Shown here: positions 630-48,478 of the stretch, in pieces
Numbering within the stretch: the first letter of the stretch is position 1
Layout of the letters: the number at the start of each line of letters is the position of its first letter
Assembly (NCBI GenBank): GCA_001303785.1
Contig: LJUJ01000005.1
Coordinates: 62,001 to 126,000 of the forward strand
Direction: 5' to 3'
Origin: Caldifarciminota bacterium SM23_42
GTDB taxonomy: Bacteria > Hydrothermota > Tepidihabitantia > SM23-42
DNA: 64,000 nt
The notes under the pieces: generated by a model
Told to the model about the DNA's origin: nothing
What the model saw: only the letters and a program-made list of their open reading frames with translations
The model's database searches: none
Position numbers and translations under genes: made by a program

Positions 630-657
630 TTGACAGCAGTGGAAAATTGGATATTAT
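630..657 (+). promoter_or_regulatory. Promoter, leaderless type
   Basis: TTGACA at 630-635, a 16-bp spacer, TATTAT at 652-657. Only six bases separate the -10 box from the ATG at 664, so the transcript should begin at or next to the start codon. Confidence 0.7.
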
Positions 658-3808: not shown

Positions 3809-3836
3809 ATAATAGCTAAACTTTGGAGAAAATCAA
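3809..3836 (-). promoter_or_regulatory. mnmG promoter P1, leaderless type
   Basis: Read on the minus strand: TTGATT (3836-3831), 16-bp spacer, TATTAT (3814-3809), then five bases (TACAC) and the mnmG ATG. Confidence 0.65.
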
Positions 3837-7301: not shown

Positions 7302-7329
7302 ATTGTATCTTCATAACCAATCTAGTCAA
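7302..7329 (-). promoter_or_regulatory. metH promoter, leaderless type
   Basis: Minus strand: TTGACT (7329-7324), 16-bp spacer, TACAAT (7307-7302), five bases, then ATG at 7296. The longer reading frame would put this promoter inside the coding region. Confidence 0.65.
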
Positions 7330-12435: not shown

Positions 12436-12463
12436 ATTATAAGCGGTATAGAAGGCAAGTCAA
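12436..12463 (-). promoter_or_regulatory. cvpA promoter, leaderless type
   Basis: Minus strand: TTGACT (12463-12458), 16-bp spacer, TATAAT (12441-12436), eight bases, ATG at 12427. It sits in the 50-bp gap after the M16 peptidase genes. Confidence 0.7.
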
Positions 12464-25778: not shown

Positions 25779-26384
25779 TCAGTATCCCCAGATTTCCTTC
25801 AAATAGACGGTTCTCCGGCACTGAGGACACAGGTATCTCAAATGCTCACTGCGGTAGGGCGGTACATCGGTACTTTTTGGAATCGACTCCTCACCATATT
25901 CCTGCGACAAGACCAAAAAGAGATTGGGGTTCGCATAGGCCAATTCACCGACCCGTCGGGCAATCCATAGCAGGTGTGCACGGGTAGTAATGACCTCACC
26001 ACAACGTTCACAGAAAATCAGCTCCTTCTCGATCGCTTCTTCGTAATCCTCTCTTGTTATTTCAGCCAAATCATATTCCTGAGTGTGTTTAATACCCTCC
26101 TTGGTTGTACAATAGGCAACACACTGCCCGCAGTATATGCACTTCTCTGGATAGTAGCTCTCCCGTCGGATACCCTTTGCTCGGTCGTCTTTCTGATCAC
26201 GAGCGTTCGCCGGGCAGACCTCGACACAAGCACCACACAAGATACACTTATCAAGATTGAATTCTATTTTTCCACGGAACGTCGGGGCTGCAGGTGAAGG
26301 CTTGAACGGAAATTTTGAGGTGAAAGGTCCTAAGAATATTGCCCTGATCGCCTCGCCGAGCTCCCTCAATTTTGGTTTGCGCAT
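25779..26384 (-). CDS. NuoI/MbhN-like ferredoxin subunit of the hydrogenase complex
   Basis: A 201-residue iron-sulfur protein, last gene of the hydrogenase operon. Two [4Fe-4S] sites are visible: CILCGACVEVCP and CIYCGQCVAYCT (the usual final Pro of the second is Thr). It corresponds to NuoI/MbhN, which passes electrons between the electron donor and the NuoB-like subunit. A C-terminal extension carries two further Cys pairs (CERCGEV, CPQCRR) that look like a zinc ribbon; this is unusual for the family and may be a docking element. The stop of the mrpG gene is immediately before its ATG. Confidence 0.88.
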   Translation of the reverse strand: MRKPKLRELGEAIRAIFLGPFTSKFPFKPSPAAPTFRGKIEFNLDKCILCGACVEVCPANARDQKDDRAKGIRRESYYPEKCIYCGQCVAYCTTKEGIKHTQEYDLAEITREDYEEAIEKELIFCERCGEVITTRAHLLWIARRVGELAYANPNLFLVLSQEYGEESIPKSTDVPPYRSEHLRYLCPQCRRTVYLKEIWGY

Positions 26385-26741
26385 TTAGGTATCCTCCCTT
26401 TCAATCTGTTCACCGCCGAGTTTGTCTGTTCCATACGTGTCAAGAATGGTGCCCTTCCACATTTTCGTGCCGAAATGCAATGATCCTCTCATCAGAGCGT
26501 GTGCCGCAACCGGGCTCGTCAATAATAGAACCGCCGTACAGATCAGTGCTTTTATGCCCATAGGAGTGAAGCCCTTAATTAGAAATATGCCAAGCATGAT
26601 GCCGACTGTACCCAGGGTCACACATTTTGTGGAAGCCTGTAAACGGTTGTATACATCCGGAAAACGAATGAGCCCTATCGCACCTAATAAATCAAAGAAA
26701 ACTCCTACCCATATTATTATCCATCCGATAGTACTAATCAT
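26385..26741 (-). CDS. mrpG: Mrp-type Na+/H+ antiporter subunit G
   Basis: A 118-residue membrane protein with three helices matching MrpG/MnhG/MbhC: IIIWVGVFFDLLGAIGLIRFPDVYNRLQA is the family hallmark region (LIRFPDVYNRL), followed by TVGIMLGIFLI and a third helix. A polar C-terminal tail of about 35 residues follows. It overlaps mrpF by eight bases. In the complex it belongs to the cation-translocating membrane module. Function inferred from the family and the unbroken order E-F-G. Confidence 0.9.
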   Translation of the reverse strand: MISTIGWIIIWVGVFFDLLGAIGLIRFPDVYNRLQASTKCVTLGTVGIMLGIFLIKGFTPMGIKALICTAVLLLTSPVAAHALMRGSLHFGTKMWKGTILDTYGTDKLGGEQIEREDT

Positions 26742-26988
26742 CGAGACTCCTTTTTTCTAAATACTTCGCGAGGGCGACAGTACCGATGAAACTGAAGAGC
26801 GCTAGCGATATTGACAAGTCGATCAGGTATGGTAGATCATAAAACAATGCACTGAGCGCAGTGATTCCGACGAACAGTATACCCATGATATCGACACCCA
26901 CTGCCCGATCAGAGATCGATGGGCCCTGGTAAATCCTATAGAGACACAAAAATCCACCAATTGCTAGGATGCTAACTAACACGCTCAT
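26734..26988 (-). CDS. mrpF: Mrp-type Na+/H+ antiporter subunit F
   Basis: An 84-residue, three-helix protein of the MrpF/MnhF/MbhB family, recognised by LYRIYQGPSISDRAVGVDIMG, the family's conserved GPSxxDRxxxxD motif, and a final LALFSFIGTVALAKYLEKR helix. Overlaps mrpE by four bases and mrpG by eight, so the three are translationally coupled. Confidence 0.92.
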   Translation of the reverse strand: MSVLVSILAIGGFLCLYRIYQGPSISDRAVGVDIMGILFVGITALSALFYDLPYLIDLSISLALFSFIGTVALAKYLEKRSLDD

Positions 26989-27470
26989 TCGAATATCCTC
27001 CTTAGAAATCTTTCAAAACGCGAGGCGATGATTTTCGAAGCCTCCTCCAAATCAGGCGATTGTACCCAAATCCAGTGTATATACAAATAGTCACCTTCCA
27101 CGTCGCAAGTCATGGTTCCTGGCGTCAGTGTAATTGAATTGGCTAGAAAGACCTTTCCAATATTAGTCTTCAATATCGTCCTAATTTTCACTATACCGGG
27201 TTTGATCGGCCTCTCTGGATGTAACACACGATAGGCAACGTCAATATTTGCCTTCACCATGTACCACAGAAAGAATGGGATGTAAATAATGAACCAGATA
27301 AGTCTATGCAGTTGCAGGAATTTGATTGGTTTGTCTGTGAAATATCCACCGAAGAAAATAGTCCCCAGTAAAACGACAATCACGCCAGCAACTAGATGAT
27401 CAAGGTTAACGCTCAAGGTTAAGAGAAGCCACAAACAGAATGCAATTACAAAATAGACCACGTATCTCAT
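26985..27470 (-). CDS. mrpE: Mrp-type Na+/H+ antiporter subunit E
   Basis: A 161-residue protein of the MrpE/MnhE/MbhA family: two N-terminal helices, the LIWFIIYIPFFLWYMVKANIDVAYRVL segment, and a soluble C-terminal part with NSITLTPGTMTCDVEGDYLYIHW, the strongest family signature. It is separated from mrpD by nine bases and overlaps mrpF by four. Confidence 0.92.
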   Translation of the reverse strand: MRYVVYFVIAFCLWLLLTLSVNLDHLVAGVIVVLLGTIFFGGYFTDKPIKFLQLHRLIWFIIYIPFFLWYMVKANIDVAYRVLHPERPIKPGIVKIRTILKTNIGKVFLANSITLTPGTMTCDVEGDYLYIHWIWVQSPDLEEASKIIASRFERFLRRIFE

Positions 27471-27479
27471 TCGGCCTCC

Positions 27480-28982
27480 TTAGAAACCAACAGCAACTGA
27501 ACCAAACACGAGATTCGCATATTCTATACCTCTGAGCAAAGCATGTGCCGCGGGGCCGACGACAAAATCAAAAACCTGTTGGAACCCGATTCCGAGTAGC
27601 ACGATTAACACCACGAGAAAAACCATTGCGATACGCATCGTAAACGGTGCCTTGCTTGCTTCGGTCCTACCTTTTTTCATGAACACGTTATTTTCTATCT
27701 TAAGAAGATAACCTAATGTTACAACACTTAGTCCGATGGCAATGATGGCTAACCACAAGAATCCACCCTTCAAAGCACCTAATATTATAAAGTACTTGGC
27801 AAAAAACCCCACCAACGGTGGTAGGCCAATCAATGACAAACCGCCGATCCGAAAACTCCACGCGGTGGTAGACATTCTCTCACCGAGTCCAGCAAGCTTG
27901 CTCAAATCTCTTGTTCCAGTAGCATTCACAACTGAACCCGATGTGAAAAACAACAACCCCTTTGCGAGGGCATGTGCCAGAATATAGAAAATTGCTCCGG
28001 CGACACCGTAGTAATTGCCGATACCAAAACCAAGCATGATGTAGCCGACCTGTGACACACTTGAATAACCCAGTAACCTCTTGTAATCTCGCTGGCTAAG
28101 GGCCGTGATTCCAGCAAAGGCGATGGACAGCAATCCTATGCCGAGAAGAACATTGAAGAATGCCGGCGCCGTGTCACGACTGAGACCAAAAACATTGAAC
28201 ACAATTCTCGCCGTCGTGTACATACCCAGCACTTTGATGAAGATACCGGACAGAAGACTTGATATGGGAGCCGGGGCCGCAGGGTGTGCGTCAGGCAGCC
28301 AGGAATGGAAAGGCACAAAGGCGGCCTTGATCGAAAACGCAAACAGCATCATGCCCAACACGGTCCAGAAGAAAGGTGTTTGCCCCATCGCCTGCAACGT
28401 ATTTGAAATATCAGCAAGATTCAGTGTAGAGGTTTTCGCATACAACAGTGCAATCGCCAGCAGAAATGTCAAACCGCCGATCTCCCCCATCACCATGTAC
28501 TTAAAGGAAGCCTCCAACTCCTCGGCGTCAACACCGAAGGCAACGAGTGCATACGACGAAATTGCCGCGATTTCAAGAAAAACAAACATATTGAAAAGGT
28601 CACCCGTGATCGACACACCCATCATTCCAGCGGTTATCAGCATATACAATGTGTAGTATTTCCATTGGCCAGTATAGTGGCTCATGTAGCGCCAGGAAAA
28701 CAGACTACCCGCAAATACGAGTATCGAGATAACGAGCACCATAAAAGCAGAGAATGAATCAAACGCCATGACAATACCAAGCGGAGGCGGCCAGTTCCCC
28801 ATCTTGTAGACGACCATTGGAATCTGCTGCATCACGGCAACACCATAGAGTGCAAGGATGAAAAGGACAAACGATACCAGTGTCACGAAAATCCAAACCA
28901 CTGATTTTGCAATTTTGCCTAGGATGGGGATTATGAATGCTGCAGCCAGAGGCAGGGCAAAATATAGCGGAATAAATGTCAC
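27480..28982 (-). CDS. mrpD: Mrp-type antiporter subunit D (NuoM/N-like channel)
   Basis: A 500-residue polytopic ion channel subunit with about 14 helices. Conserved features of the family include FVFLEIAAISSYALVAFG with the TM5-region Glu, IKAAFVPFHSWLPDAHPAAPAP with the TM7 Lys, and the LLGYSSVSQVGYIMLGFGIG and HALAKGLLFFTSG regions. It is one of three antiporter-like subunits in this operon. Length and neighbours (mrpC upstream, mrpE downstream) match MrpD/MbhH. Confidence 0.92.
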   Translation of the reverse strand: MTFIPLYFALPLAAAFIIPILGKIAKSVVWIFVTLVSFVLFILALYGVAVMQQIPMVVYKMGNWPPPLGIVMAFDSFSAFMVLVISILVFAGSLFSWRYMSHYTGQWKYYTLYMLITAGMMGVSITGDLFNMFVFLEIAAISSYALVAFGVDAEELEASFKYMVMGEIGGLTFLLAIALLYAKTSTLNLADISNTLQAMGQTPFFWTVLGMMLFAFSIKAAFVPFHSWLPDAHPAAPAPISSLLSGIFIKVLGMYTTARIVFNVFGLSRDTAPAFFNVLLGIGLLSIAFAGITALSQRDYKRLLGYSSVSQVGYIMLGFGIGNYYGVAGAIFYILAHALAKGLLFFTSGSVVNATGTRDLSKLAGLGERMSTTAWSFRIGGLSLIGLPPLVGFFAKYFIILGALKGGFLWLAIIAIGLSVVTLGYLLKIENNVFMKKGRTEASKAPFTMRIAMVFLVVLIVLLGIGFQQVFDFVVGPAAHALLRGIEYANLVFGSVAVGF

Positions 28983-28992
28983 ATTCGCCTCC

Positions 28993-29331
28993 TTATCCTT
29001 TCAACTTCCTGATTTCTGCAATATCAAAGGTCTTGTACCGATTGTAGATACGCAACACAACACTTAGCATGAGTGCCGTCGTCCCCAATGCAATAACGAT
29101 TGCCGTAAGAACCAAGGCCTGAGGGATCGGGTCAACAAATTTGTGCGGCATATCGACCTGCGTAATGATCGGCGCCAGCATGCCGCGCCGGAAACCGATT
29201 AGGGCGAAGAGGAGATTGATTGCGTATTCGATGAAAGCGAAGCCGATGACTATTTTTATCAGATTGCGTTTGGTAACAATAGCGTACAAACCTATCAAGA
29301 ATAGAATAATACAGCTCAGAAAAATAATCAT
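28993..29331 (-). CDS. mrpC: Mrp-type antiporter subunit C (NuoK-like)
   Basis: A 112-residue three-helix NuoK/MrpC/MbhG homologue. RNLIKIVIGFAFIEYAINLLF (with the functional Glu in the second helix) and PIPQALVLTAIVIALGTTAL are the hallmark MrpC segments. A C-terminal amphipathic tail follows. It lies between mrpB and mrpD as in Mrp operons. Confidence 0.92.
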   Translation of the reverse strand: MIIFLSCIILFLIGLYAIVTKRNLIKIVIGFAFIEYAINLLFALIGFRRGMLAPIITQVDMPHKFVDPIPQALVLTAIVIALGTTALMLSVVLRIYNRYKTFDIAEIRKLKG

Positions 29332-29342
29332 AATTTATCTCC

Positions 29343-29777
29343 TCAATCCTTCATCACATACTTGACTGCGGCGAGGGAAAGAAATATCGAGAATAGACCA
29401 GCGCCTACCTTGAAACTTATCGCGATGTTACAGAAAGGAATAATACCTCCACTCAAGAGATTCAGGGGAACACCCTTTGGCAAGAAGTTGCGGAAGAAAA
29501 CGCCAGCCAGCATGAGCCCGGCGATGGCAATACCGACAAACAAAAGTGCACCGATGCTTTCGAATATCGAAGCTCTGGTTTCCGATCTTTTCTCGGCACC
29601 AGCCTCGCTACCGTATGCCAATACTCTTAAGACCAGTGCTCCGGCAATGATCACACCGCCCGCAAAGCCGCCACCCGGTGTCAAATGTCCATGTAGAATA
29701 ATATATACACCATAGATGAAGATGAAACCGATCATGACATTGGTTATTGTCTTCACAATCAAACTCATTCCCTTCAT
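29343..29777 (-). CDS. mrpB: Mrp-type antiporter subunit B
   Basis: A 144-residue four-helix protein of the MrpB/MnhB/MbhF family: GVYIILHGHLTPGGGFAGG is the invariant motif, followed by GVIIAGALVLRVLAYG and LNLLSGGIIPFCNIAISFKVG. Overlaps the MbhD/E-like gene by four bases. Confidence 0.93.
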   Translation of the reverse strand: MKGMSLIVKTITNVMIGFIFIYGVYIILHGHLTPGGGFAGGVIIAGALVLRVLAYGSEAGAEKRSETRASIFESIGALLFVGIAIAGLMLAGVFFRNFLPKGVPLNLLSGGIIPFCNIAISFKVGAGLFSIFLSLAAVKYVMKD

Positions 29778-30307
29778 TTCTTCCTCCCGACGCTGCGCAT
29801 TAGAGCGATCACACCGATAACCGATGTAAAGAGAACGGTCGCCTCACCAAGTGTATCGAGTGCACGAAAATCTAATATCACATCAGCAACGAGGTTGGCA
29901 CCCCCGGTTTGCGGAAGTCCTAGCCTTATATATTCACTCGCAACCTTCATTGTTGCGTTGCCAAAAGCCGGTAATTCCTGTAACGCCCTGACCATGGCTA
30001 TGAAAAAGATTAGCGCAAAAAATGCGTAGAGCACAATAGACAATACGTGAGAGCTGGTAAGTTTCTTTCCAATGGTCTCGTCGACGTGTGTAGTACGGAA
30101 GATCACAGCCACGAAAATGACAATAGTGACCACTTCCACAACGATCTGCACAATGGCTAGATCTGGAGCTTGAACGAGGATGAACATGATCGCAACGGAA
30201 AAGCCCACTGCACCGAGTGATATCACTGCTGCCAACAGGTCTTTTATCTCAGTGGCAACAAAGGCTGCTATAATCATGAACACAAGAAACAGATAGAGTT
30301 CTATCAT
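29774..30307 (-). CDS. Fused MbhD/MbhE-like subunit (MrpA C-terminal region)
   Basis: A 177-residue membrane protein combining two units that are separate in Pyrococcus Mbh. The N-terminal half (DUF4040 type) has VQAPDLAIVQIVVEVVTIVIF, as in MbhD and the MrpA tail. The C-terminal half has NLVADVILDFRALDTLGEATV followed by a helix, as in MbhE and the MrpA/MrpB junction. In full-length MrpA these regions are the C-terminal part of one large protein; here they stand alone while the NuoL-like part is the preceding gene. Probably forms part of the Na+ pathway. Confidence 0.82.
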   Translation of the reverse strand: MIELYLFLVFMIIAAFVATEIKDLLAAVISLGAVGFSVAIMFILVQAPDLAIVQIVVEVVTIVIFVAVIFRTTHVDETIGKKLTSSHVLSIVLYAFFALIFFIAMVRALQELPAFGNATMKVASEYIRLGLPQTGGANLVADVILDFRALDTLGEATVLFTSVIGVIALMRSVGRKK

Positions 30308-30319
30308 TAAGACCTCCCG

Positions 30320-32215
30320 TCAAAAAACCAAAATCAGCAGTATTATTATACCACCGAGAAAAATCCAGCCGACATAGTTGTACAACTCGCCAGTGTGGAG
30401 TAACGAAGTCAATTTCCCGAACATGGTCACGATCTTCCCGAACACCCTGTATAATGATGTTATGAGTCTGTCCAAGACATCCCTGGAGAGAATAGCGACG
30501 CCGCTTGCTGCACCGTGTAGAAAGTTATAGAAATCAAAAGCACCACCCTCACCGAAATCATATGTCTTCTTGAGCATATCAACACTGTCTATCGAAGAGT
30601 AGAAATTGGGGCCAGTTATCCGGGCGGATTCTTCATCGAGTATTTCACCGCCCACATATACACGCGTCCTTCTCGGTTTCATTACAGTACCAAACAGATA
30701 GACAACGATCCCGACCACGATCCCGACGATGATCAACAACGTGGCAAGGGTAGGAGACCAGAAACCGATTTCGCCAATGTCATACACAACGCTAGGCAGA
30801 ATAAGGTATTTGAGGGGCACAGCCTGGGCAAAGATGCCAAACACGATACACACCAGAGCAAGCAACAATGCTGGGACAACCATTTCGAAACGGGCCTCAC
30901 GCACCTTATTGAGTTCTTTTGGTCGTTCACCAAGAAAAATCGAGTGCATTAACTTCAGGTTGTACGCCAATGTCAAAATGCTACCAAACATGGCGCAGAT
31001 GAGAAAAACGAACCAGATGTTTATTGTACTACTCGTCTCGATTATACCCTGATAGATCATCCATTTCGAATAGAAACCATTCAACGGCGGAACTCCGGAA
31101 ATCGCGAGAGCCGCCACGACGAATGCGAAAAGAGTGACCGGCATCTTCACTCCCAACCCGCCCAACGAGTCCAAGTTTGTCGTTTTGGTTCGGTATTCGA
31201 CGGCACCCGTGGATAAGAAGAGTGCCGATTTATATATCACGTTATTCAACATGTGAAAAAGCGCTCCCGCAATAGCTATTGGTATACCGGTACCGACACC
31301 CAGCAGCATATAGCCGGCCTGTGAAACGGTCGAGAATGCCAACATTCTTTGAGCTTCTTTCTGCCATAGTGCCATTAGTGCCATGAAGATGATCGTGATT
31401 GAACCGATGATCATCAAGGTCAACTGCAACGGAACATACTTAGAAATATCAAATATATAATAGGACAATCTCATCAAGAGATAGAACCCTAGTAGCTTGT
31501 CCAAACTACCCGGTAAATACGCCAAGGTAGAGGCCGGAACGACCTTTGCGGCTTCCGGTATCCAGGTATGCATGGGAACCGTACCCAGCTTGGCTAAGAC
31601 CCCAACAAGAATCATCAAGTAGGATACGATCAACCATACATCGGTGAAAAGGACCTTCGTATCCAGAGGGAAATTGATACTACCTGTCTTGACGAAAAAT
31701 ATTACAATGCCCAACATCATGACGTAATCAGAAACACCGATAATAGTTATCGCCTTACGCGCCGCGGGTGCGCTATAGACCTTTCCGACTTGAAGTAAAC
31801 CGTAAAGAGAGAATACTAATACATTCCAGAATAGCAGGAGGAATATCAGATTACCACTGAGAACGACACCATTTGCGGCCGACAGGGTCAACGCTACGTA
31901 TAGATAATAGACTCTCTCACGTGGTGTCTTTGACATCGCCCTCAAGGAATAGAGCCAAATCAGAATCGCAAAAATTGCATTGAAAAGAACGATGAAGCCG
32001 GCTAGACTATCCGCATAGAACCTGAAATCAATACCAATAAACGAAGCAACATTGTAGGAGATTATCTGTGTTCTTGTGTCGATGAATATCCTTATTGCAT
32101 AGAAAAGTGTAAGCAGAAAGGCCACCAGATCCAATTCTGTACGGAGGCGATTGATAAGAAAACCCAGCAGCCCGAAAAATATTGGCACTACGATGACATA
32201 ATATATTTCATTCAT
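30320..32215 (-). CDS. NuoL/MrpA-like proton or sodium channel subunit
   Basis: A 631-residue polytopic antiporter-like protein. Conserved channel features: LIFLLLFWNVLVFSLYGLL (TM5 region), LAKLGTVPMHTWIPEAAKVV with the TM7 Lys, GAALFHMLNNVIYKSALFL, and the LAFSTVSQAGYMLLGVG region. Beyond the usual 14 helices it has a C-terminal extension (about 500-631) with a soluble stretch and a terminal helix (YVGWIFLGGIIILLILVF), like HyfB/NuoL-type lateral helices. With the two other channel subunits it gives the complex three ion paths. Six bases or fewer separate it from its neighbours. Confidence 0.9.
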   Translation of the reverse strand: MNEIYYVIVVPIFFGLLGFLINRLRTELDLVAFLLTLFYAIRIFIDTRTQIISYNVASFIGIDFRFYADSLAGFIVLFNAIFAILIWLYSLRAMSKTPRERVYYLYVALTLSAANGVVLSGNLIFLLLFWNVLVFSLYGLLQVGKVYSAPAARKAITIIGVSDYVMMLGIVIFFVKTGSINFPLDTKVLFTDVWLIVSYLMILVGVLAKLGTVPMHTWIPEAAKVVPASTLAYLPGSLDKLLGFYLLMRLSYYIFDISKYVPLQLTLMIIGSITIIFMALMALWQKEAQRMLAFSTVSQAGYMLLGVGTGIPIAIAGALFHMLNNVIYKSALFLSTGAVEYRTKTTNLDSLGGLGVKMPVTLFAFVVAALAISGVPPLNGFYSKWMIYQGIIETSSTINIWFVFLICAMFGSILTLAYNLKLMHSIFLGERPKELNKVREARFEMVVPALLLALVCIVFGIFAQAVPLKYLILPSVVYDIGEIGFWSPTLATLLIIVGIVVGIVVYLFGTVMKPRRTRVYVGGEILDEESARITGPNFYSSIDSVDMLKKTYDFGEGGAFDFYNFLHGAASGVAILSRDVLDRLITSLYRVFGKIVTMFGKLTSLLHTGELYNYVGWIFLGGIIILLILVF

Positions 32216-32217
32216 TT

Positions 32218-33426
32218 CTATATTCCCCCTGAGACCAGATAATGCACAGGCTGATAGAAGAAGACACCGAGGAGTAGTGAGACCAGAGCAAGCACGAAGG
32301 ACACTGCGATGCCCACATAACTCGGACGCTTTGCCCGCAGCTTTTGAACGTCACATTGCGGGCCAAAGAACAACTCGTGGTAGAACCTGGTGCTGTAAAG
32401 CAGAGTGAAGACGGCAGCCACAATCGCACCGACACCAAAATATGCGGTCTTTTCAACTGCGCCGATAATCACGGTTAGCTTTGAGAAAAACCCTAGCATC
32501 GGGAAGAATCCGACGATCGACCCAATCAACAATGCCATCGATACCGCCAGGACAGGCGACAGCCTAAGCAAACAAGCCACATTCCTCAAATCATCTTTAC
32601 CTGTGGATTCCTCTATCACACCGACCCCATAAAACAAACCGGACTTTGCCAAAGCATGCGCTGCGATATACAAAACACCGCCAAGCAAACCATAAGTTCC
32701 GCCTACCGCAAATGCTAGAATGATAAACCCCAGTTGACTGACTGTTGAGAATGCCAACAACGTTCTGAGTTTGTTAGCCCGGAGCGCCACACCTCCACCA
32801 ATGATACTAGACAATATTGCAATCCACGCTACCGTGTTGAAGAAAGCCGGGGCCGCGTAATGCCCCATGGTAAACAATCGAAGAAAAAGAACAGCGCCGA
32901 GGTTCTCAGCAATACCGGCTAAACTGCCACCGATTGCTGAAGGGATCGCTTCGTATGCGGGTGCCAGCCAAATATGAAGCGGTATGGTTACCGATTTCGT
33001 GAGTATTCCGATAAGTATCAATACTGCCGCGGTATCACTGATAACACTGATCTTAAACAAATTAAATGTCCCGTTGTCAACATACAAAATCATGAGGCCG
33101 ACCAACATTACCGTTGCCGCCGCAAAATTCACCAAGAAGGTGAAGCTCGAAGCAGATATTTCCCCGGCGCCCCGGTAGTAGCCCACTGCCCTCCAGACCG
33201 CAAACGTTGAAACTTCCCAGAGGACGTATATTAACAAAAGATTGTAAGATAGTGCCACGCCCACTCCCGACCCTATAATCAGCAGTAGCATCAGGTAGAA
33301 CTCAAGACGATGCCCCTTTTCCCTCACTGTAGCAAGACCGTATATTAGAGACATGAGACCAATGAAAACGAATATAATACTCAAGAAAATACCATACTGG
33401 TCTAGGAAAAAATCAAATCCAATCAT
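32218..33426 (-). CDS. NuoN/HyfF-like antiporter subunit
   Basis: A 402-residue polytopic channel subunit, shorter than NuoM/N (about 490). It shows LLLIYVLWEVSTFAVWRAVGYY with the TM5 Glu, GILTKSVTIPLHIWLAPAYEA with the TM7 Lys, and LLAFSTVSQLGFIILAFA and IAAHALAKSGLFYGVG. I start it at the ATG at 33426, which overlaps the stop of the large-subunit gene as ATGA; the open frame extends 40 codons further upstream but that part overlaps the hydrogenase gene and is not membrane-like. Confidence 0.88.
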   Translation of the reverse strand: MIGFDFFLDQYGIFLSIIFVFIGLMSLIYGLATVREKGHRLEFYLMLLLIIGSGVGVALSYNLLLIYVLWEVSTFAVWRAVGYYRGAGEISASSFTFLVNFAAATVMLVGLMILYVDNGTFNLFKISVISDTAAVLILIGILTKSVTIPLHIWLAPAYEAIPSAIGGSLAGIAENLGAVLFLRLFTMGHYAAPAFFNTVAWIAILSSIIGGGVALRANKLRTLLAFSTVSQLGFIILAFAVGGTYGLLGGVLYIAAHALAKSGLFYGVGVIEESTGKDDLRNVACLLRLSPVLAVSMALLIGSIVGFFPMLGFFSKLTVIIGAVEKTAYFGVGAIVAAVFTLLYSTRFYHELFFGPQCDVQKLRAKRPSYVGIAVSFVLALVSLLLGVFFYQPVHYLVSGGI

Positions 33427-34598
33427 CGCCGATATCTCCTTCTTAACCTTTCGGTCTTTCGCCACGAAAGTCTTAGCATATCTTTTCCGGTAAGTTCCCT
33501 TTTGCCATTTCGCAAGACAACGGTCCTCTCGGTGCAACAGTAGCACGGATCAACTGCGGCAAGAACCAATGCTGCATCAGCAATAGAATAGCCCCTCACG
33601 GCAACCACATTCGATGGTATGTTCATGAAACTCGGTGCCCTTATCTTATGCCTAACTGGCATATTCGAACCATCTGAGCGCACATAATGGAACACCTCAC
33701 CGCGCGGCGCCTCATGTCGCCCAATGCCCTCGCCAGGTGGGATTTCATCCACTCTGGTCTCGATTGGGCCATCGGGCATATTCCTCAAACACTGCCGCAC
33801 TATTTTTATTGACTCGGAACACTCCAAGAGCCGCACTTTTGCTTTAGCGAGCACATCACCCTCGTCAAATACGATTTCATTCCAATCAACCTTATCGTAG
33901 GCATCATATGGGTCATCCTTGCGCACATCTGTTGCATAACCAGAACCCCGCGCAGTTGGACCGAGCACGCCATAAGCAACAGCATCCTCTTTTGATAATA
34001 TCCCCACGCCCTCCAAACGGGCTCTTATCACCGGGTCATCTAGTACCGCCTTGGTGAACATTGTATTCTTCTCTTCGAGCAGATCCAAGTACTTCTCAAT
34101 CTTTGAGTAATGCTCAGGCAGAATATCACGCCTCGCACCACCAACCTTATTGATCGCGTAGTGATTACGGTTCCCCATGATCAATTCAAATATGTCAAGT
34201 AAGGGCTCACGATAACGCCAGACCCACATCCATACAGTGTTGTAACCAATGAAATGACCGGCTAAACCCACCCACAGATAATGGGAATGTATCCTCTCCA
34301 GCTCGCCAATAATGGTTCTTATGTACTGAGCACGGGGTGGCGCCGTTACATGTGCCGCGTCCTCGACTGCTAGGACATATGCATAGGGATGTGAATCAGA
34401 GCAGATACCACATATCCTTTCTACTAAGAAGGTTACCTGATCCCAGGTCATCTTTTGAGCGACAAATTCATGCCCACGGTGGTTGTAGCCGATATTTATC
34501 TCAAGGTCAACGACCTTCTCGCCTTCGACAATAAGCTTGAAAAACTCCGGCTCCTCCTGCAATGGGTGGTACGGTCCAATCGGCACTATTCTCTTCAT
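33423..34598 (-). CDS. Group 4 [NiFe] hydrogenase large subunit
   Basis: A 391-residue NuoD-related catalytic subunit. Both nickel-binding motifs are intact: RICGICSDSH (residues 61-70) and DPCYCCTER (350-358), giving four Cys ligands, so this is a hydrogenase and not a complex I or sulfane-reductase subunit, in which one or both motifs are altered. A 33-residue C-terminal tail follows Arg358, as in HycE-type enzymes where a maturation protease cuts after this residue; a matching protease gene lies at 40419-40892. IRTIIGELERIHSHYLW is also typical. The start overlaps the NuoC-like gene by four bases. Expected to evolve or oxidise H2 at the cytoplasmic side of the membrane. Confidence 0.94.
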   Translation of the reverse strand: MKRIVPIGPYHPLQEEPEFFKLIVEGEKVVDLEINIGYNHRGHEFVAQKMTWDQVTFLVERICGICSDSHPYAYVLAVEDAAHVTAPPRAQYIRTIIGELERIHSHYLWVGLAGHFIGYNTVWMWVWRYREPLLDIFELIMGNRNHYAINKVGGARRDILPEHYSKIEKYLDLLEEKNTMFTKAVLDDPVIRARLEGVGILSKEDAVAYGVLGPTARGSGYATDVRKDDPYDAYDKVDWNEIVFDEGDVLAKAKVRLLECSESIKIVRQCLRNMPDGPIETRVDEIPPGEGIGRHEAPRGEVFHYVRSDGSNMPVRHKIRAPSFMNIPSNVVAVRGYSIADAALVLAAVDPCYCCTERTVVLRNGKRELTGKDMLRLSWRKTERLRRRYRR

Positions 34599-35083
34599 CG
34601 CTCCTCCGTAGATTTCTCGACCTTTAGATCCTTATGTTCGTCGGCGTAATCACGTCGCAGCGGATGCAAGTCACCAGGCCATGTCTCAGCAGTCAAGAGT
34701 GGAATAAGGTTTGGATGACCGACGAAATCGATCCCCAGCAATTCATGAATCTCACGTTCAATCCAATTTGCCGCCGGCAGAAAATCAGCCAGACTCTTGA
34801 TCTTCAAGTCGTCTTTTGGTACCAGCGTCTTAATGCTGTAATATGTCCCGCTCGGATCGTGTGAAAAGTGATAGATGATTTCCATGCCATCACGCTTATC
34901 GATGCCAGTAGCAATGGATAGACGGCACTCCTTTTCTTCGAACAGGAACTTCGCGAAACCATATACATCATCCCTAGGTACGCGGATGTAGGTACGGCGT
35001 GGTGCGTGTATCTTCACCGACGCTTGCGGAAACTTGGCACCAATTTCATCCAAGATCTCTTTTGAATATTCTTTTTTCATCAT
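34595..35083 (-). CDS. NuoC-like (30 kDa) hydrogenase subunit
   Basis: A 162-residue soluble protein of the NuoC/HycE-N/MbhK family. The RLSIATGIDKRDGMEIIYHF strand pattern and the C-terminal signature AANWIEREIHELLGIDFVGHPNLIPLL, followed by DLHPLRRDY, are diagnostic. It binds next to the large subunit and bridges to the NuoB-like protein. It overlaps both neighbouring genes by four bases. Confidence 0.92.
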   Translation of the reverse strand: MMKKEYSKEILDEIGAKFPQASVKIHAPRRTYIRVPRDDVYGFAKFLFEEKECRLSIATGIDKRDGMEIIYHFSHDPSGTYYSIKTLVPKDDLKIKSLADFLPAANWIEREIHELLGIDFVGHPNLIPLLTAETWPGDLHPLRRDYADEHKDLKVEKSTEER

Positions 35084-35496
35084 AACCTCTTCAATGCCTT
35101 AACAACACCACTGATTATCGCCTCAGGTTTGGGAGGACAGCCTGGAATATAGACATCCACGGGAAGATATTTGTCGTACGGTCCCACCACGTTATATGAC
35201 GGGGCAAACATATGGGTATCGCAAGTGCATGTGCCGACACAAATCACAAGACACGGTTTCGGCGTCTGTTCATATACGCGCAGAACTCGGGGCAGCGACT
35301 TGCGGTTCAACACGCCCGTGACGAGTAACGCATCCGCGTGTCTTGGCGAACCAACCAAGACGATGCCAAAACGTTCAACGTCCCAACGCGGGGTCAGAAT
35401 ATCGAGTATTTCGATATCGCAGTTATTGCACGATGCGGCAGCCACATGAAAAACCCAAGGTGATTTTTTCAGTCCCCAAAGCTTAGCATTCGCCAT
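35080..35496 (-). CDS. NuoB-like hydrogenase small subunit
   Basis: A 138-residue protein carrying the proximal [4Fe-4S] cluster. Ligands are in ASCNNCDIEILDILTPRWD (two Cys), ICVGTCTCD and YIPGCPPKPE; this SCNxCDIE pattern matches the MbhJ type. It receives electrons from the NuoI-like ferredoxin and passes them to the NiFe site. Gene order H-B-C-D of the core module is kept. Confidence 0.92.
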   Translation of the reverse strand: MANAKLWGLKKSPWVFHVAAASCNNCDIEILDILTPRWDVERFGIVLVGSPRHADALLVTGVLNRKSLPRVLRVYEQTPKPCLVICVGTCTCDTHMFAPSYNVVGPYDKYLPVDVYIPGCPPKPEAIISGVVKALKRL

Positions 35497-35508
35497 ATAG
35501 TTCTCCTT

Positions 35509-36429
35509 TTATAGACCGTAAACTGCCAAAACCAAACCCACGACTGATAATATGCCGATACCTAGCCAGAAGAAACGCAGCGATTGATCAATACGAATTC
35601 TTGGATTGGTATTCTTGATAAGCACGATCAGAACGATGATTAACAGGAATTTCAGAATCGCCCACCAATCACCCAGACCGCCCCAAAGTACCGAAATCAA
35701 GAAGAGCGGCAGGAGAAACAACATCATCGCTCGCACCAACTTATACATGGCCAGGGCTACTCCAGAATATTCTATATAGGGACCAGCCATGATTTCCTGC
35801 TCGGCTTCAGGGATGTCAAAGGGCACGAATCCCAGTTTTGCTTGAGCCGATAAAAGAATAACAATTGCGCCTATCACCCCTGAAATCGAATACAGAAAAG
35901 GGCCGCTGGCCTTTTGGGCAAGAATAATATCTCCAAATCTGATGCTTCCCCCGGCCTTCAATATGATTCCGGCGATTGTGATCAGGAAAGGCAATTCATA
36001 CGCGAAATACTGAGTCATCTCTCGAGATACACCGACACTCGCCAACGGATTCTTCGAAGCCGAACCGCCAATCATTATTCCCAGCGGAGGCAATGCCAAG
36101 AGATAAATCATAACAATCAGATCACCGACAAAAGTGTTACCCGGGTTCAAATTCATCGAGAATAGCATTACCGCCAGAATACTCATGGCAACAAGGCCAA
36201 TGATCGGTCCCAACAGGAAGAGCACTTTCGAACTGCCTTCGGGAATGATTGTCTCTTTCAAAAGCAGTTTAAGAAAATCTGCATACGGCTGATACCACGG
36301 CGGTCCGACGCGCCAGTGAATGCGGGCCGTAACTTTTCGATCAATCCAGGTAAGCAAAAGACCGACTAGGGCTGTGAATATGAAACCTGGAAATATAATA
36401 TAAGAAAAAAGAATTCTTACGACGCTCAT
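35509..36429 (-). CDS. NuoH-like membrane anchor of the hydrogenase
   Basis: A 306-residue protein with about eight helices, homologous to NuoH, EchB and MbhM. The hallmark cytoplasmic loops are present: LLTWIDRKVTARIHWRVGP, QPYADFLKLLLKE, and LGFVPFDIPEAEQEIMAGP with its acidic cluster. It links the hydrophilic hydrogenase arm to the ion-channel arm. Its ATG overlaps the stop of the ferredoxin gene (36426-36429). Confidence 0.94.
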   Translation of the reverse strand: MSVVRILFSYIIFPGFIFTALVGLLLTWIDRKVTARIHWRVGPPWYQPYADFLKLLLKETIIPEGSSKVLFLLGPIIGLVAMSILAVMLFSMNLNPGNTFVGDLIVMIYLLALPPLGIMIGGSASKNPLASVGVSREMTQYFAYELPFLITIAGIILKAGGSIRFGDIILAQKASGPFLYSISGVIGAIVILLSAQAKLGFVPFDIPEAEQEIMAGPYIEYSGVALAMYKLVRAMMLFLLPLFLISVLWGGLGDWWAILKFLLIIVLIVLIKNTNPRIRIDQSLRFFWLGIGILSVVGLVLAVYGL

Positions 36430-36896
36430 GCCTTTCTCCTGATAAACAGATCCTGGGATACCATTCTCATCCCAATCTCATGTCGCTTGATTTCGTCATC
36501 AGATAGCCACTGGAGAGCACCCGAAGAACACGCAGCAACGCATCGCGGGCCTTCCTTCCGGTCGGCACACAAGCTGCATTTCTGAGATATGTGCCTAACT
36601 AAAGGTGCGTCGATTACACCAAAAGGACAGGCATACGCACAGCTCTTGCAGCCAATACAAATGTTTGCCGAACGGACAACGAGGCCGGTGGATTCATCTT
36701 GGGTGATTGCCTCCACCGGACATGATGCAAGACACAAGGGTTGTTTGCAATGTTTGCAGGCTAGTGGAAGGTAAGCAACACCGGTAATGTCTCCATGTCG
36801 AATGCGCGCCTCACCCTTGAACGCAGACCTGCACGCGGCTTCGCAGGAACGACATCCGCAACACAAATCAAGGTCCAATACTATTCTTTTCTGCAT
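36426..36896 (-). CDS. Four-cluster ferredoxin (HycB/CooF-like)
   Basis: A 156-residue electron-transfer protein with cysteine groups for four [4Fe-4S] clusters: CCGCRSCEAAC, CKHCKQPLCLASCP, CIGCKSCAYACP and CSLCADRKEGPRCVAAC. This matches the HycB/HydN/CooF family that connects formate or CO dehydrogenases to group 4 hydrogenases. Its start overlaps the end of the molybdopterin-fold gene by 16 bases, so it probably takes electrons from that subunit or the flavoproteins and feeds the membrane hydrogenase. Confidence 0.93.
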   Translation of the reverse strand: MQKRIVLDLDLCCGCRSCEAACRSAFKGEARIRHGDITGVAYLPLACKHCKQPLCLASCPVEAITQDESTGLVVRSANICIGCKSCAYACPFGVIDAPLVRHISQKCSLCADRKEGPRCVAACSSGALQWLSDDEIKRHEIGMRMVSQDLFIRRKA

Positions 36897-38455
36897 ATTT
36901 TCACCTCGGTTGGAATGAAATTGACAATATTACTATCGGTGTTGATCTCATACTCGAATAGTCCCTTCACGTCCGGCGTCTCGGCCGAAACGGCAACGAT
37001 CCCTTTGTCAACATCAGTGGTCAGTCTCACTGGAAAATCCACACTGCCATGTTTGGAAGTAACCGACGCCAGGTCATTCTCCTTCAATCCCAGTTCAGCC
37101 GCATCTCGAGGGTTGACCTTCAGTGCTTCCGACTCGAAGAATCCAAGAAAGCTATAGGCAATCTTTTCACCGATGAGCCGATAGCCCTTCTTCTTGGGAA
37201 GGCTCATCTGTACCAGCTTGCGCGCACTTTCAGTGATATTCATCTTGCCCTCAGGCGGTATCATAACCTCACCCTTCCCGGGTCCCTCGTCAAGCATATT
37301 CAGGATCTCGCTGATTGACTTTGCACCACTTGGTGGTTCGATACCGGCGTTGAGTTCTTTTTTCCCGAATGTAGTGATCACCGTACCTTTCTTCTCAAGA
37401 TTAAAAGGCACGGGCAGCACGATATCACCGGTGTACTTGAACGTTGACGTAGCATAGATATTCGACCCCTTTAGCTCAGCATTCAATTGCGGATAGTAGA
37501 AGGGGAAAAGTTCCCCAAAGTTGATCAGATTCTTTATTTTCTTCTTCTTCACCTTTTCCAATATCGTCGCGAAATTTCGACTTCCTCCGTAACCCGTAAA
37601 CTCCACGAAAGGCACGACCCTCATCCCACTGAATTTACGCAATCGCATGAGACCCTCCACGAGCAATCTTGCATCGTAAGTATGCCCAAAGGAGAGACAC
37701 GCGAAAATCAAACCTCCCTCTGCAGCCTTGATAGCCTTGGAAACATCGGCTATCACCTCTGCATCGATGCCAGTCGCCTTGGCAATATCTACACCGTCAA
37801 TTTTCTCCTGAGCGAGACCGAAGAGCAACAAAGGCTCTGTTCCGACCGCTACCCTCAAGAATGTGTCTGCAAACCCTGCGGTGTGAGTATTAATCGAATC
37901 AATGACTAATAGATTGTTTTTCTTGTTACTCAACTTCCAGTCAATGATCGATTGCGATGACATCGGCGCGTGGTTGAACGGGTCCCCAAGAATAAGAACA
38001 AGCTGCGCTTTGTCTAGCTCTTTAGTCGCAAAAGGTTTATCAAGAAATGGCTTCAAATAGGCTTCTGGCTCAAAATATGTAGATGAAATATCATCGATAC
38101 CGTTTTTCTTGCAGAATCCGATAATCGAGGCGTATTCCTCAAGCGTCACGTTACGATCAAAGGTCACAGCGACGTTCTTCGGATTACCGATGACTTTCCT
38201 CAATTCTTTAGCCATCCTCGACCATTCAATAGCTTTGCTATTCTTCATCGGCGTGGACAATCGCCGCGGATGATCAAGATACATTGCGGCGGCGCTTCCC
38301 CTTGGGCATAGCCTCCCGCCACTGCTGCCATCTTTGATGTATTCCACACCGGCAACACCGAAATCATTGAAGATCACCCCGAATTCGCACCCAAAACTAC
38401 AGAATGGGCATAGCGCCCTCTTGACTACAACGGCTTTAGGATCGATGTTTTTCAT
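36881..38455 (-). CDS. Molybdopterin-oxidoreductase-fold subunit (FdhA/NuoG-like)
   Basis: A 524-residue protein related to formate dehydrogenase alpha and NuoG. The N-terminal [4Fe-4S] motif CPFCSFGCEFGV ... GRLCPRG is intact, the middle has LVLILGDPFNHAPMSSQS, and the C-terminal dinucleotide-binding domain includes NPRDAAELGLKENDLASV. It is about 150-200 residues shorter than FdhA, and I cannot find the Cys or Sec Mo-ligand segment (CHxPS-like) near residue 140, so it may be a NuoG-type electron conduit and not a formate dehydrogenase. I start at the ATG at 38455, which forms ATGA with the preceding stop; a longer frame reaches 38491. Confidence 0.75.
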   Translation of the reverse strand: MKNIDPKAVVVKRALCPFCSFGCEFGVIFNDFGVAGVEYIKDGSSGGRLCPRGSAAAMYLDHPRRLSTPMKNSKAIEWSRMAKELRKVIGNPKNVAVTFDRNVTLEEYASIIGFCKKNGIDDISSTYFEPEAYLKPFLDKPFATKELDKAQLVLILGDPFNHAPMSSQSIIDWKLSNKKNNLLVIDSINTHTAGFADTFLRVAVGTEPLLLFGLAQEKIDGVDIAKATGIDAEVIADVSKAIKAAEGGLIFACLSFGHTYDARLLVEGLMRLRKFSGMRVVPFVEFTGYGGSRNFATILEKVKKKKIKNLINFGELFPFYYPQLNAELKGSNIYATSTFKYTGDIVLPVPFNLEKKGTVITTFGKKELNAGIEPPSGAKSISEILNMLDEGPGKGEVMIPPEGKMNITESARKLVQMSLPKKKGYRLIGEKIAYSFLGFFESEALKVNPRDAAELGLKENDLASVTSKHGSVDFPVRLTTDVDKGIVAVSAETPDVKGLFEYEINTDSNIVNFIPTEVKICRKE

Positions 38456-39267
38456 AGAAACGGCTCCTCGATATCCTTTATATCTTTCCACGTGAGAACT
38501 GGGCCATCCTTACAAACATAGAACTTACCCACGCGACAATGATTACACTTACCCAGACCGCAAGACATGTTCTTTTCCATCGATAGATAAATGCTCTCGT
38601 GCCTGAATCCGGCCTCGACCAGTTTCTGAGTCGTGAATTTCATCATAAGTGGTGGGCCACAAACAATTGTGGGGGAAGTCTTCACATCAACGGGAATCTC
38701 GTCTAGAATTACGGTTACAACACCAACCCTGCCCTGCCAAGATGCATCACCAACATCCACAGTGAGTAGCAGATCGACTCCATCGATCCTCTGCCATTCT
38801 GGGATGAGATGTTTGTAGACGATGTCTTTAGGCGTTCTCGCTCCATACCGTATATAAATCTTCTTATAGTCTTTTATTTTGTGAAGCAATGCCAAAAATA
38901 GTGATCGCAGAGGAGCAAAGCCAACGCCGCCACCGACAATGAATACTTCTTTGCCTTTGAAATCCTTTAACGGGTACGGTTTTCCAAAAGGACCCCTGAC
39001 ACCTACGAGTTCTCCTTCCTTTAAATCAAACAGCGCATCGGTGACACGTCCAACTTTCATAATCGTGAATTCCAGATCATCATCGTATGGCGAAGAGGAA
39101 GGCGTAAACGGTGCCTCACCAACACTCGGTATTGTCAATTCAGCAAACTGACCGGCCTCGAAATCGATCGGCTTACCGTCTAATATGAACGTCGTGATAT
39201 TGGGCGTTTCAGGGATAATCTTTTTAATCTTGACTGGGATAGGATAATATGGATTTATAGGTTCCAT
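38452..39267 (-). CDS. HydG/AsrB-like FAD/NAD(P)H oxidoreductase subunit
   Basis: A 271-residue flavoprotein of the sulfhydrogenase gamma-subunit type. An FAD domain comes first (FEAGQFAELTIPSVGEAPF), then a pyridine-nucleotide domain (EVFIVGGGVGFAPLRSLFLAL, VCGPPLMMKF) and a C-terminal [2Fe-2S] site (NMSCGLGKCNHCRVGKFYVC). In group 3b hydrogenases and anaerobic sulfite reductase this subunit exchanges electrons with NAD(P)H. Here it is in a group 4 hydrogenase operon, overlapping the HydB-like gene by 13 bases. Confidence 0.92.
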   Translation of the reverse strand: MEPINPYYPIPVKIKKIIPETPNITTFILDGKPIDFEAGQFAELTIPSVGEAPFTPSSSPYDDDLEFTIMKVGRVTDALFDLKEGELVGVRGPFGKPYPLKDFKGKEVFIVGGGVGFAPLRSLFLALLHKIKDYKKIYIRYGARTPKDIVYKHLIPEWQRIDGVDLLLTVDVGDASWQGRVGVVTVILDEIPVDVKTSPTIVCGPPLMMKFTTQKLVEAGFRHESIYLSMEKNMSCGLGKCNHCRVGKFYVCKDGPVLTWKDIKDIEEPFL

Positions 39268-40259
39268 AGAATCTCCCTTATATCAATCTTTGCTGAGCAA
39301 CCTAACAGGCATCTTCCGCAACCCGAACAGGCGTACATATTCTCGTATTTAAAGAAAAAATCAAACTTGCATTGAAAACGGTTCCAGAATCTTTCATCGA
39401 GCCGGCTACGTGGGTTGGCTCCGCCTCCGACACGCGCGTATGCAGCGTAGTAGCACGCATCCCAAAGTCTTATTCGTTCTATGTCCTTTCCCTTCTTATA
39501 ATCGCTTAATAGAAAACAATAGCATGTAGGGCATCCATGTAGACAGGCATGACACTCAACACACTCATCGCGCGCATCACGAATTCGCTCTTTGTCTGCC
39601 GCACCTACCCTGGCCGACAGATCTTTTTTGAAAACCCTGCTGTTGATAGTATTGAGCTTCTTGATCGCCTGATCGCGTATCATCGCCCGCTGTTTCTTAT
39701 CCTCCTCCTTTGCTTCCGTAAAGAAATCTTTATGAGCTTCAATGATTGCTTCACCCTTCTTGGTAAAAGCATCAAACAACAGCCCGTTAGGTACTACCGT
39801 GAAATTCAAATCACTCAGGCCCTCAACATATGGGTTTAGTCCTAGTAGGTTGCAGAAGCACGAATCTTCAGGCTCCGGGCAGTCCGCTGATATAATGATT
39901 GTCTTATCTCTGCGTTCTTTGTACAATGGGTCAACTGGCTCCCAGCCTACAAACACACGGTCATAAACATCGATTCCACGCAAGTCACAATTCTTGACAC
40001 CAAAAAGATAACGCTTCCGCACCGGAATCACTTCATCCTTCGGAAACCTCGCCACAGTATCACGGCTCGGGAAGAAGAAGTGTTTAATGTTTTCCGCGGT
40101 TCGTATCCTTTCGAAATTGGGTTTGAATTCCCTGCTCACATCATACCCGACGATATGTGTCTTCCCATTCTCGAGTTCCGGGTAATACAGAGACCCATCG
40201 CTTGACAGTTCTTTAACAAAATCTAATAATTTATCTGGGGATAGTAGATAGGATTTCAT
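39255..40259 (-). CDS. HydB/AsrA-like iron-sulfur subunit, first gene of the hydrogenase operon
   Basis: A 334-residue protein of the sulfhydrogenase beta/anaerobic sulfite reductase A family. The N-terminal part includes RYLFGVKNCDLRGIDVYDRVF and DCPEPEDSCFCNLLG; the C-terminal part has two [4Fe-4S] sites, CVECHACLHGCP and CSGCGRCLLGCS. It partners the HydG-like flavoprotein and moves electrons between it and other Fe-S subunits. It heads an 18-gene operon, and its ATG stands eight bases after a consensus TATAAT, so the whole operon message is probably leaderless. Confidence 0.92.
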   Translation of the reverse strand: MKSYLLSPDKLLDFVKELSSDGSLYYPELENGKTHIVGYDVSREFKPNFERIRTAENIKHFFFPSRDTVARFPKDEVIPVRKRYLFGVKNCDLRGIDVYDRVFVGWEPVDPLYKERRDKTIIISADCPEPEDSCFCNLLGLNPYVEGLSDLNFTVVPNGLLFDAFTKKGEAIIEAHKDFFTEAKEEDKKQRAMIRDQAIKKLNTINSRVFKKDLSARVGAADKERIRDARDECVECHACLHGCPTCYCFLLSDYKKGKDIERIRLWDACYYAAYARVGGGANPRSRLDERFWNRFQCKFDFFFKYENMYACSGCGRCLLGCSAKIDIREILWNL

Positions 40260-40267
40260 AGAAGCCT

Positions 40268-40295
40268 ATTATAGCAATATCTTACACCCTGTCAA
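40268..40295 (-). promoter_or_regulatory. Hydrogenase operon promoter, leaderless type
   Basis: Minus strand: TTGACA (40295-40290), 16-bp spacer, TATAAT (40273-40268), eight bases, ATG at 40259. Both boxes are perfect consensus. No separate operator is obvious. Confidence 0.75.
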
Positions 40296-40418: not shown

Positions 40419-40892
40419 TTATCTGAGTTTTTCAGATAATGCCTCATACAGCTCTATTATACTAAAACCTTGCTTTTTGTCAACATCGTTTAAAACGCTC
40501 GCTATGCGGTCTCCGATATCCTTGACACGCTTCGAGCATGTCTCAAAGGACGCCGCTGGTACGCCTAAAAATAATACATCCGGCACACCGTTCCCCCGTA
40601 AGAACATATACACAGCACCGAAGGGCAGGTTGTGCGTCGTAACCGAAAGCGCATTATGGTCTGCAATCTCATCGTTTCTCAACAAAACAGGGACGTCCTC
40701 ACCCTTTACAGCATCCAGGAAAATGACGACATCTGGCGACTGCGCGATGATTTCATTCAATTGGTTTTCAGGATAGAGCCCACAATCGATCTTCAGAACG
40801 TTTTGCTGTGTACGCAACTGTTCAACAACGTAAGGACCGAAAGCATCATCACCGCGGTCCTTGTTACCGATCCCGCATACTACAATACGCAT
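40419..40892 (-). CDS. HycI-type [NiFe] hydrogenase maturation protease
   Basis: A 157-residue endopeptidase that removes the C-terminal tail of the hydrogenase large subunit after Ni insertion. The family motif GIGNKDRGDDAFGPYVVE is at the N-terminus; nickel-sensing acids are in the DD pair and in VIFLDAVKG, and the His is in SVTTHNLPFG, as in HybD/HycI. It lies upstream of the hydrogenase operon, in the same direction but with its own leaderless promoter. The large subunit here has the tail this enzyme needs. Confidence 0.93.
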   Translation of the reverse strand: MRIVVCGIGNKDRGDDAFGPYVVEQLRTQQNVLKIDCGLYPENQLNEIIAQSPDVVIFLDAVKGEDVPVLLRNDEIADHNALSVTTHNLPFGAVYMFLRGNGVPDVLFLGVPAASFETCSKRVKDIGDRIASVLNDVDKKQGFSIIELYEALSEKLR

Positions 40893-40898
40893 TCAATC

Positions 40899-40926
40899 AT
40901 TATAACCACTCACTACGTCTTGTCAA
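40899..40926 (-). promoter_or_regulatory. Maturation-protease promoter, leaderless type
   Basis: Minus strand: TTGACA (40926-40921), 16-bp spacer, TATAAT (40904-40899), six bases, ATG at 40892. Confidence 0.75.
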
Positions 40927-41100: not shown

Positions 41101-41128
41101 TTGACACGCCTATCGAAACGACTATATT
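41101..41128 (+). promoter_or_regulatory. Cupin-operon promoter, leaderless type
   Basis: TTGACA (41101-41106), 16-bp spacer, TATATT (41123-41128), seven bases, ATG at 41136. Confidence 0.72.
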
Positions 41129-48450: not shown

Positions 48451-48478
48451 TTGACAACGGGTGATAGTCATATATAAT
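48451..48478 (+). promoter_or_regulatory. Glycosyltransferase promoter, leaderless type
   Basis: TTGACA (48451-48456), 16-bp spacer, TATAAT (48473-48478), seven bases, ATG at 48486. Both boxes are perfect consensus. Confidence 0.75.

Follow-up and report, generated by a model that had tools for sequence, protein, structure and literature searches.

Start-adjacent consensus promoters and predicted leaderless initiation in a WOR-3 bacterium, with a putatively duplicated hydrogenase start

Leaderless initiation is known from the Deinococcota and the Actinobacteria. In Deinococcota, a -10 element a few base pairs before the start codon gives leaderless mRNA at ∼30% of open reading frames, an RBS class coexists with these genes, and the TANNNT element alone is sufficient, while an added -35 element only strengthens it (Zhong et al., 2025; PMC12340547). 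In mycobacteria, RNA-seq and ribosome profiling showed that leaderless mRNAs are common beside those led by a Shine-Dalgarno (SD) sequence (Shell et al., 2015; PMC4633059). An in silico survey has also covered leaderless genes of bacteria (Zheng et al., 2011; PMC3160421). GeneMarkS-2 places 21.6% of bacterial species in its leaderless class (Lomsadze et al., 2018, cited in PMC9581028). A full-text literature search found no paper on leaderless mRNA, or on promoter or transcript mapping, in WOR-3.

The DNA analyzed here is a window of 64,000 nucleotides (G000:C16:62001-126000) from the MAG of an uncultured member of the WOR-3 candidate phylum (2.53 Mb in 59 contigs, 97% complete). Its MnmG protein is 64-70% identical to those of its four closest named relatives, which carry the annotation candidate division WOR-3 or Candidatus Stahlbacteria. 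Promoter and start statistics cover 832 kb of this genome (G000) and 200-800 kb per relative, with genes called by our own simple ORF caller and with arbitrary cut-offs. The relatives are G004 (same genus), G012 (same family), and G028 and G056 (class level, with G028 outside the order). No Rfam family was found within the 64-kb window. The 16S rRNA of the MAG is represented by just a fragment under the Rfam cut-off (G000:C5:320316-320455), and the full gene is absent from the MAG.

Promoters adjacent to start codons

The sigma70 housekeeping promoter consists of TTGACA and TATAAT boxes spaced by 17 ± 1 bp, and G000 promoters have both the boxes and the spacing. Across all 2.53 Mb of the genome we count 210 copies of TTGACA-N15..18-TATAAT and one of a reversed control, and the spacer is nearly always 16 bp; among 35 exact pairs in 464 kb, 31 have a 16-bp spacer and three have 17 bp. 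Genomes sharing the genus, family or order all hold 103-271 exact 16-bp copies, and genomes from other families of the class hold 7-135, mostly fewer than 100. At spacers of 15-18 bp, the pair count is 211 and 172 in two more WOR-3 genomes, versus 0-42 across 19 genomes outside the group. Promoters across the order (∼100-270 exact copies per genome) have a 16-bp and not a 17-bp spacer, and T is favored at the fourth base before the -10 box.

A preliminary description of the window had placed such promoters directly before eight start codons, and re-reading the DNA bore out the geometry at each: a 16-bp spacer, a -10 box ending 5-8 nt from the ATG, and no SD at any of the eight starts. The boxes of the hydrogenase operon promoter on the minus strand are perfect (see below), as are those of hycI (TTGACA-16-TATAAT, 40899..40926, minus strand, 6 nt before the ATG at 40892), found in 7 of 8 loci of the genus, and of a GT2 glycosyltransferase gene (TTGACA-16-TATAAT, 48451..48478, plus strand, 7 nt to the ATG at 48486), where the geometry is kept in G004 and G012. 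The remaining five have imperfect boxes: mnmG (TTGATT-16-TATTAT, 3809..3836, minus strand, 5 nt to the ATG at 3803), metH (TTGACT-16-TACAAT, 7302..7329, minus strand, 5 nt to the ATG at 7296), cvpA (TTGACT-16-TATAAT, 12436..12463, minus strand, 8 nt to the ATG at 12427), a DUF2273 small membrane protein gene (TTGACA-16-TATTAT, 630..657, plus strand, 6 nt to the ATG at 664) and a cupin gene (TTGACA-16-TATATT, 41101..41128, plus strand, 7 nt to the ATG at 41136). Visual inspection of mnmG in five other WOR-3 loci showed the same geometry, which was also found in G012. Pfam was used to check the genes at these sites (MnmG, MetH, CvpA, HycI, cupin, GT2 and DUF2273).

The pattern extends well beyond these eight sites. 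With a promoter defined as TTGAC, a 16-17 bp spacer and TATAAT with at most one mismatch, there are 197 strong promoters in 832 kb of G000, and ORF starts lie 5, 6, 7 and 8 nt after their -10 boxes in 26, 30, 12 and 6 cases, compared to ∼4 at each other offset. Summed over offsets 5-8, this is a strong excess of 74 observed against ∼18 expected (P ∼ 3 × 10⁻²³). The offset peak recurs in G004 (P ∼ 2 × 10⁻⁹), G012 (P ∼ 3 × 10⁻¹⁰) and G028 (P ∼ 6 × 10⁻⁷), and weakly in G056, which has few promoters. Loci from outside WOR-3 have 41 promoters per Mb versus ∼237, without a clear offset peak.

Could the -10-like boxes be chance matches in AT-rich DNA, with the genes transcribed by readthrough from upstream promoters and translated by a non-SD, AT-rich or S1-type route? 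AT-rich stretches before starts can indeed be a sign of S1 binding or of little structure (PMC5397173), but a reverse test makes this explanation highly improbable. A TTGACA-like -35 box (at most two mismatches) at a spacer of 16-17 bp accompanies 67 of the 85 -10 boxes that lie 5-7 nt ahead of candidate starts, with 55 at 16, 12 at 17 and 0-7 at any other spacer, and this confinement indicates that the start-adjacent -10 boxes are real promoters. In addition, promoters matching all 12 consensus bases are far above the control, and in the hydrogenase orthologs both boxes are conserved while the spacers diverge.

None of 65 leaderless candidates has an SD. SD motifs are most frequent 4-7 nt ahead of the start, and -10 boxes, in fewer genes, at 5-7 nt. 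Leaderless candidates, which include GTG and TTG starts, make up 46 of 225 operon-first genes versus 3 of 242 internal genes (P ∼ 7 × 10⁻¹³), and in 33 of the 46 the base preceding the start is a pyrimidine, which fits the usual Y-1/R+1 preference at transcription starts. The preliminary description had proposed a genome scan for such an excess as a test of leaderless mRNAs at operon-first genes, and the outcome favors them: the excess is strong and confined to operon-first genes, the starts lack an SD, and the geometry is conserved gene by gene, as described below. Genes of this kind are nonetheless a minority, at ∼20% of operon-first genes. Many of the remaining operon-first genes have a leader with GGAGG. 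An intact anti-SD at the 16S 3′-end was found in 38 of the group's 61 genomes, indicating that SD initiation coexists with the leaderless mode.

Transcription from sigma70 promoters usually starts ∼7 nt past the -10 box. We propose that a housekeeping sigma70-type RNA polymerase would use the strong TTGACA-16-TATAAT promoters, and that at about one-fifth of operon-first genes the -10 box, placed 5-8 nt before the start codon, would set the transcription start on, or 1-3 nt from, the first base of that codon. The ribosome would then initiate at the 5′-terminal start codon of a leaderless mRNA without SD pairing, while downstream operon genes and operon-first genes with a real leader would initiate via GGAGG. 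The start positions are predicted from the usual -10 spacing, and AUG initiation at the 5′-terminus is the expected consequence. Taken as a whole, together with the inheritance of the mode by each gene and the duplicated hydrogenase start discussed below, we regard this explanation as very probable.

The hydrogenase operon and its promoter

The first gene of the 18-gene operon (25779-40259, minus strand) encodes a 4Fe-4S dicluster protein with a Fer4_22 domain (39255..40259), and its predicted leaderless start at 40259 agrees with an N-terminus conserved from residue 1. The 17 further genes (25779..39267, minus strand) encode a group-4-like [NiFe] hydrogenase and Mrp-type antiporter subunits by Pfam. 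As had been claimed for genes inside operons, all 17 carry SD-like sites. The operon has the features of a group 4 [NiFe] hydrogenase, with a NiFe large and small subunit, NuoH-like and Mrp-type membrane subunits, and HycI nearby. The large subunit (NiFeSe_Hases/Complex1_49kDa) shows two CxxC-type motifs, CGIC and CYCC, in its translation, and other domains in the operon are Oxidored_q6, NADHdh and Proton_antipo_M. The operon also encodes a 4Fe-4S plus FAD/NAD electron-input pair and a molybdopterin-oxidoreductase-like subunit.

Read on the minus strand, the promoter P1 is TTGACA-GGGTGTAAGATATTGC-TATAAT-AGGCTTCT-ATG, with the -35 box at 40290..40295, the -10 box at 40268..40273, AGGCTTCT at 40260..40267 and the ATG at 40259-40257, so that the -10 box ends 8 nt before the ATG. 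All 20 order-level orthologs have the -35 box, as TTGAC(A/T/G) with one TTGATG, and a 16-bp spacer, and the -10 box is TATAAT in 19 and TATACT in one. The gap from the -10 box to the ATG is 7-9 nt in all 20, reaching 9 nt in three f2 orthologs. This geometry is kept whether or not the promoter lies within hycI, and conservation of the promoter in other genera partly reflects hycI coding. A further motif, CTATCTACTAYCCY, was considered as a shared promoter motif and rejected, having one perfect match and one with a single mismatch, and it is not common to other promoters.

The 8-nt gap at the hydrogenase and cvpA promoters, and the 9-nt gap in the three f2 orthologs, are longer than the typical 5-6 nt and would allow a leader of 1-3 nt. 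It is possible, as a variant of our main reading, that transcription starts 1-5 nt before the ATG and leaves a leader too short for an SD. We find this doubtful, as most sites have gaps of 5-6 nt, and at the hydrogenase gene the base before the ATG is T in 20 of 20 orthologs, with the two bases before it pyrimidines in 20 and 19 of 20. In 19 orthologs, three pyrimidines thus precede the ATG, making its A the first purine after them, and a predicted start on the first base of the ATG, or 1-3 nt from it, remains the preferred reading.

A relic start within hycI

Upstream of the operon lies hycI, encoding the hydrogenase maturation protease (40419..40892, minus strand), with a leaderless start predicted from its TATAAT-6-ATG geometry. 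The preliminary description had overlooked a second perfect TTGACA-16-TATAAT pair in the 3′-end of hycI, which we call P2 (40456..40483, minus strand). P2 is kept in all eight genus members, with 12 of 12 consensus bases in seven of these, although the encoded HycI residues vary. Following P2 is what appears to be a relic of the hydrogenase start (40419..40447, minus strand), beginning with ATGAGGCATTATCTG and overlapping the last 29 nt of hycI, and its translation, MRHYLKNSDKL, resembles the MKSYLLSPDKL of the present gene. In 8 of 8 genus members the hycI stop lies exactly 29 nt into the relic, which encodes a MRHYLxxSDNL-like peptide. At 9 of 9 loci elsewhere in the family that have an upstream hycI, the end of hycI shares exactly 29 nt with the real hydrogenase gene, which places the hydrogenase promoter and start inside hycI there. 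Within the genus, the hycI end lies 155-159 nt 5′ of the hydrogenase gene in all eight members, and the relic start is ∼188 nt upstream of the present one.

From these arrangements we infer that the ancestral leaderless start lay in the 3′-end of hycI, with the 29-nt overlap, and that in this genus the unit of promoter and ATG was duplicated, with the copy ∼188 nt downstream, leaving P2 as a relic of the ancestral hydrogenase promoter. The conservation of P2 in the eight genus members, despite varying HycI residues, could also be read to mean that P2 is the main driver of the hydrogenase operon, producing a leader of ∼185 nt, and that P1 is secondary. This is unlikely, as a transcript from P2 would lack an SD ahead of the ATG at 40259, the P2-P1 interval is poorly conserved except at its two ends, and the ancestral start, still part of hycI coding sequence, accounts for P2. 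P2 could still yield an additional, leadered transcript of the operon beside the leaderless one predicted from P1.

Two other candidates in this region were rejected. A 51-aa ORF after P2 was considered as a leaderless leader peptide, but past the relic start the genus conserves neither its frame nor its residues. The palindrome TTATCTGA-N5-TCAGATAA was considered as a regulon operator; a second genome site was found zero times at up to one mismatch and once at two, and the palindrome is part of the relic start and hycI end.

The first codons of the present hydrogenase gene are themselves conserved. Across the 20 orthologs, conservation of the first ten codons is partly due to hycI, which overlaps the gene by 29 nt outside the genus. 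Within the genus no such overlap is left, yet in seven of its species codons 2-10 (start region 40230-40259, minus strand) are 97% synonymously conserved, the top of 324 windows. An inverted repeat, TATCT-N9-AGATA, lies within these codons. High synonymous conservation of first codons was rejected as a general mark of leaderless genes (0.47 and 0.45, versus 0.41-0.50 for SD-led genes), so the effect is specific to the hydrogenase gene. We tentatively suggest that the first 30 nt of the leaderless hydrogenase mRNA may be a gene-specific control element, freed from the hycI overlap by the duplication and then kept, a proposal we hold with less than even confidence. Such an element might act on transcription, as an operator covering the start point, or on translation, as an initiation element within the 5′-terminal codons.

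Inheritance of the initiation mode and comparison with known systems

We classed G000 genes as leaderless or SD-led and sought their orthologs in G004 and G012, covering 800 kb of each. The leaderless mode recurs among orthologs of leaderless genes in 18 of 20 cases in G004 and 12 of 13 in G012, and none gained an SD. Orthologs of SD-led operon-first genes kept the SD in 16 of 18 and 25 of 30 cases, and are leaderless in one of 18 and one of 30. The contrast between the two classes (P ∼ 2 × 10⁻⁷ and 1 × 10⁻⁸) indicates that the initiation mode, as predicted from promoter and SD positions, is inherited gene by gene.

The same orthologs bear on whether the ATGs next to the -10 boxes were miscalled within ordinary leaders, the true starts lying further downstream behind an SD. 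Two hydrogenase operon genes (38491 and 33546) do have an SD-led start 3′ of the longest-ORF start. The hydrogenase, mnmG and other leaderless proteins, however, align with their orthologs from or near residue 1, and nearby in-frame ortholog starts have an SD in 0 of 20 and 0 of 13 cases, leaving miscalled starts a scarcely credible account of these genes. With leaderless starts as the favored reading, SD-based gene finders may misplace WOR-3 start codons in part of the operons, as GTG and TTG occur among the leaderless starts. The hydrogenase locus offers a natural experiment, in which a promoter and ATG now ∼188 nt from the neighboring gene, with no SD, remain a conserved unit, and this suggests that a short cassette is sufficient.

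Compared to mycobacteria, WOR-3 is a different phylum, and its leaderless mode is predicted here from sequence. As in the surveyed leaderless bacteria (PMC3160421; PMC9581028), a Pribnow box precedes the start, and leaderless and SD-led genes are mixed in one genome; in WOR-3, conservation of the mode was measured here per ortholog (18/20 and 12/13). With WOR-3, a phylum whose transcripts have apparently not been mapped in the literature searched joins those with mixed leaderless and SD initiation. The closest likeness is to Deinococcota, with the -10 box next to the start codon in predicted leaderless genes alongside an SD class. Unlike the Deinococcota mode, in which the -10 element typically stands without a -35 box, 67 of 85 start-adjacent -10 boxes in WOR-3 have a TTGACA-like -35 box at 16-17 bp, mainly 16. 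While the predicted leaderless mode is shared with these known systems, WOR-3 as its host phylum, leaderless promoters with full consensus -35 and -10 boxes, and the putatively duplicated hydrogenase start are new.
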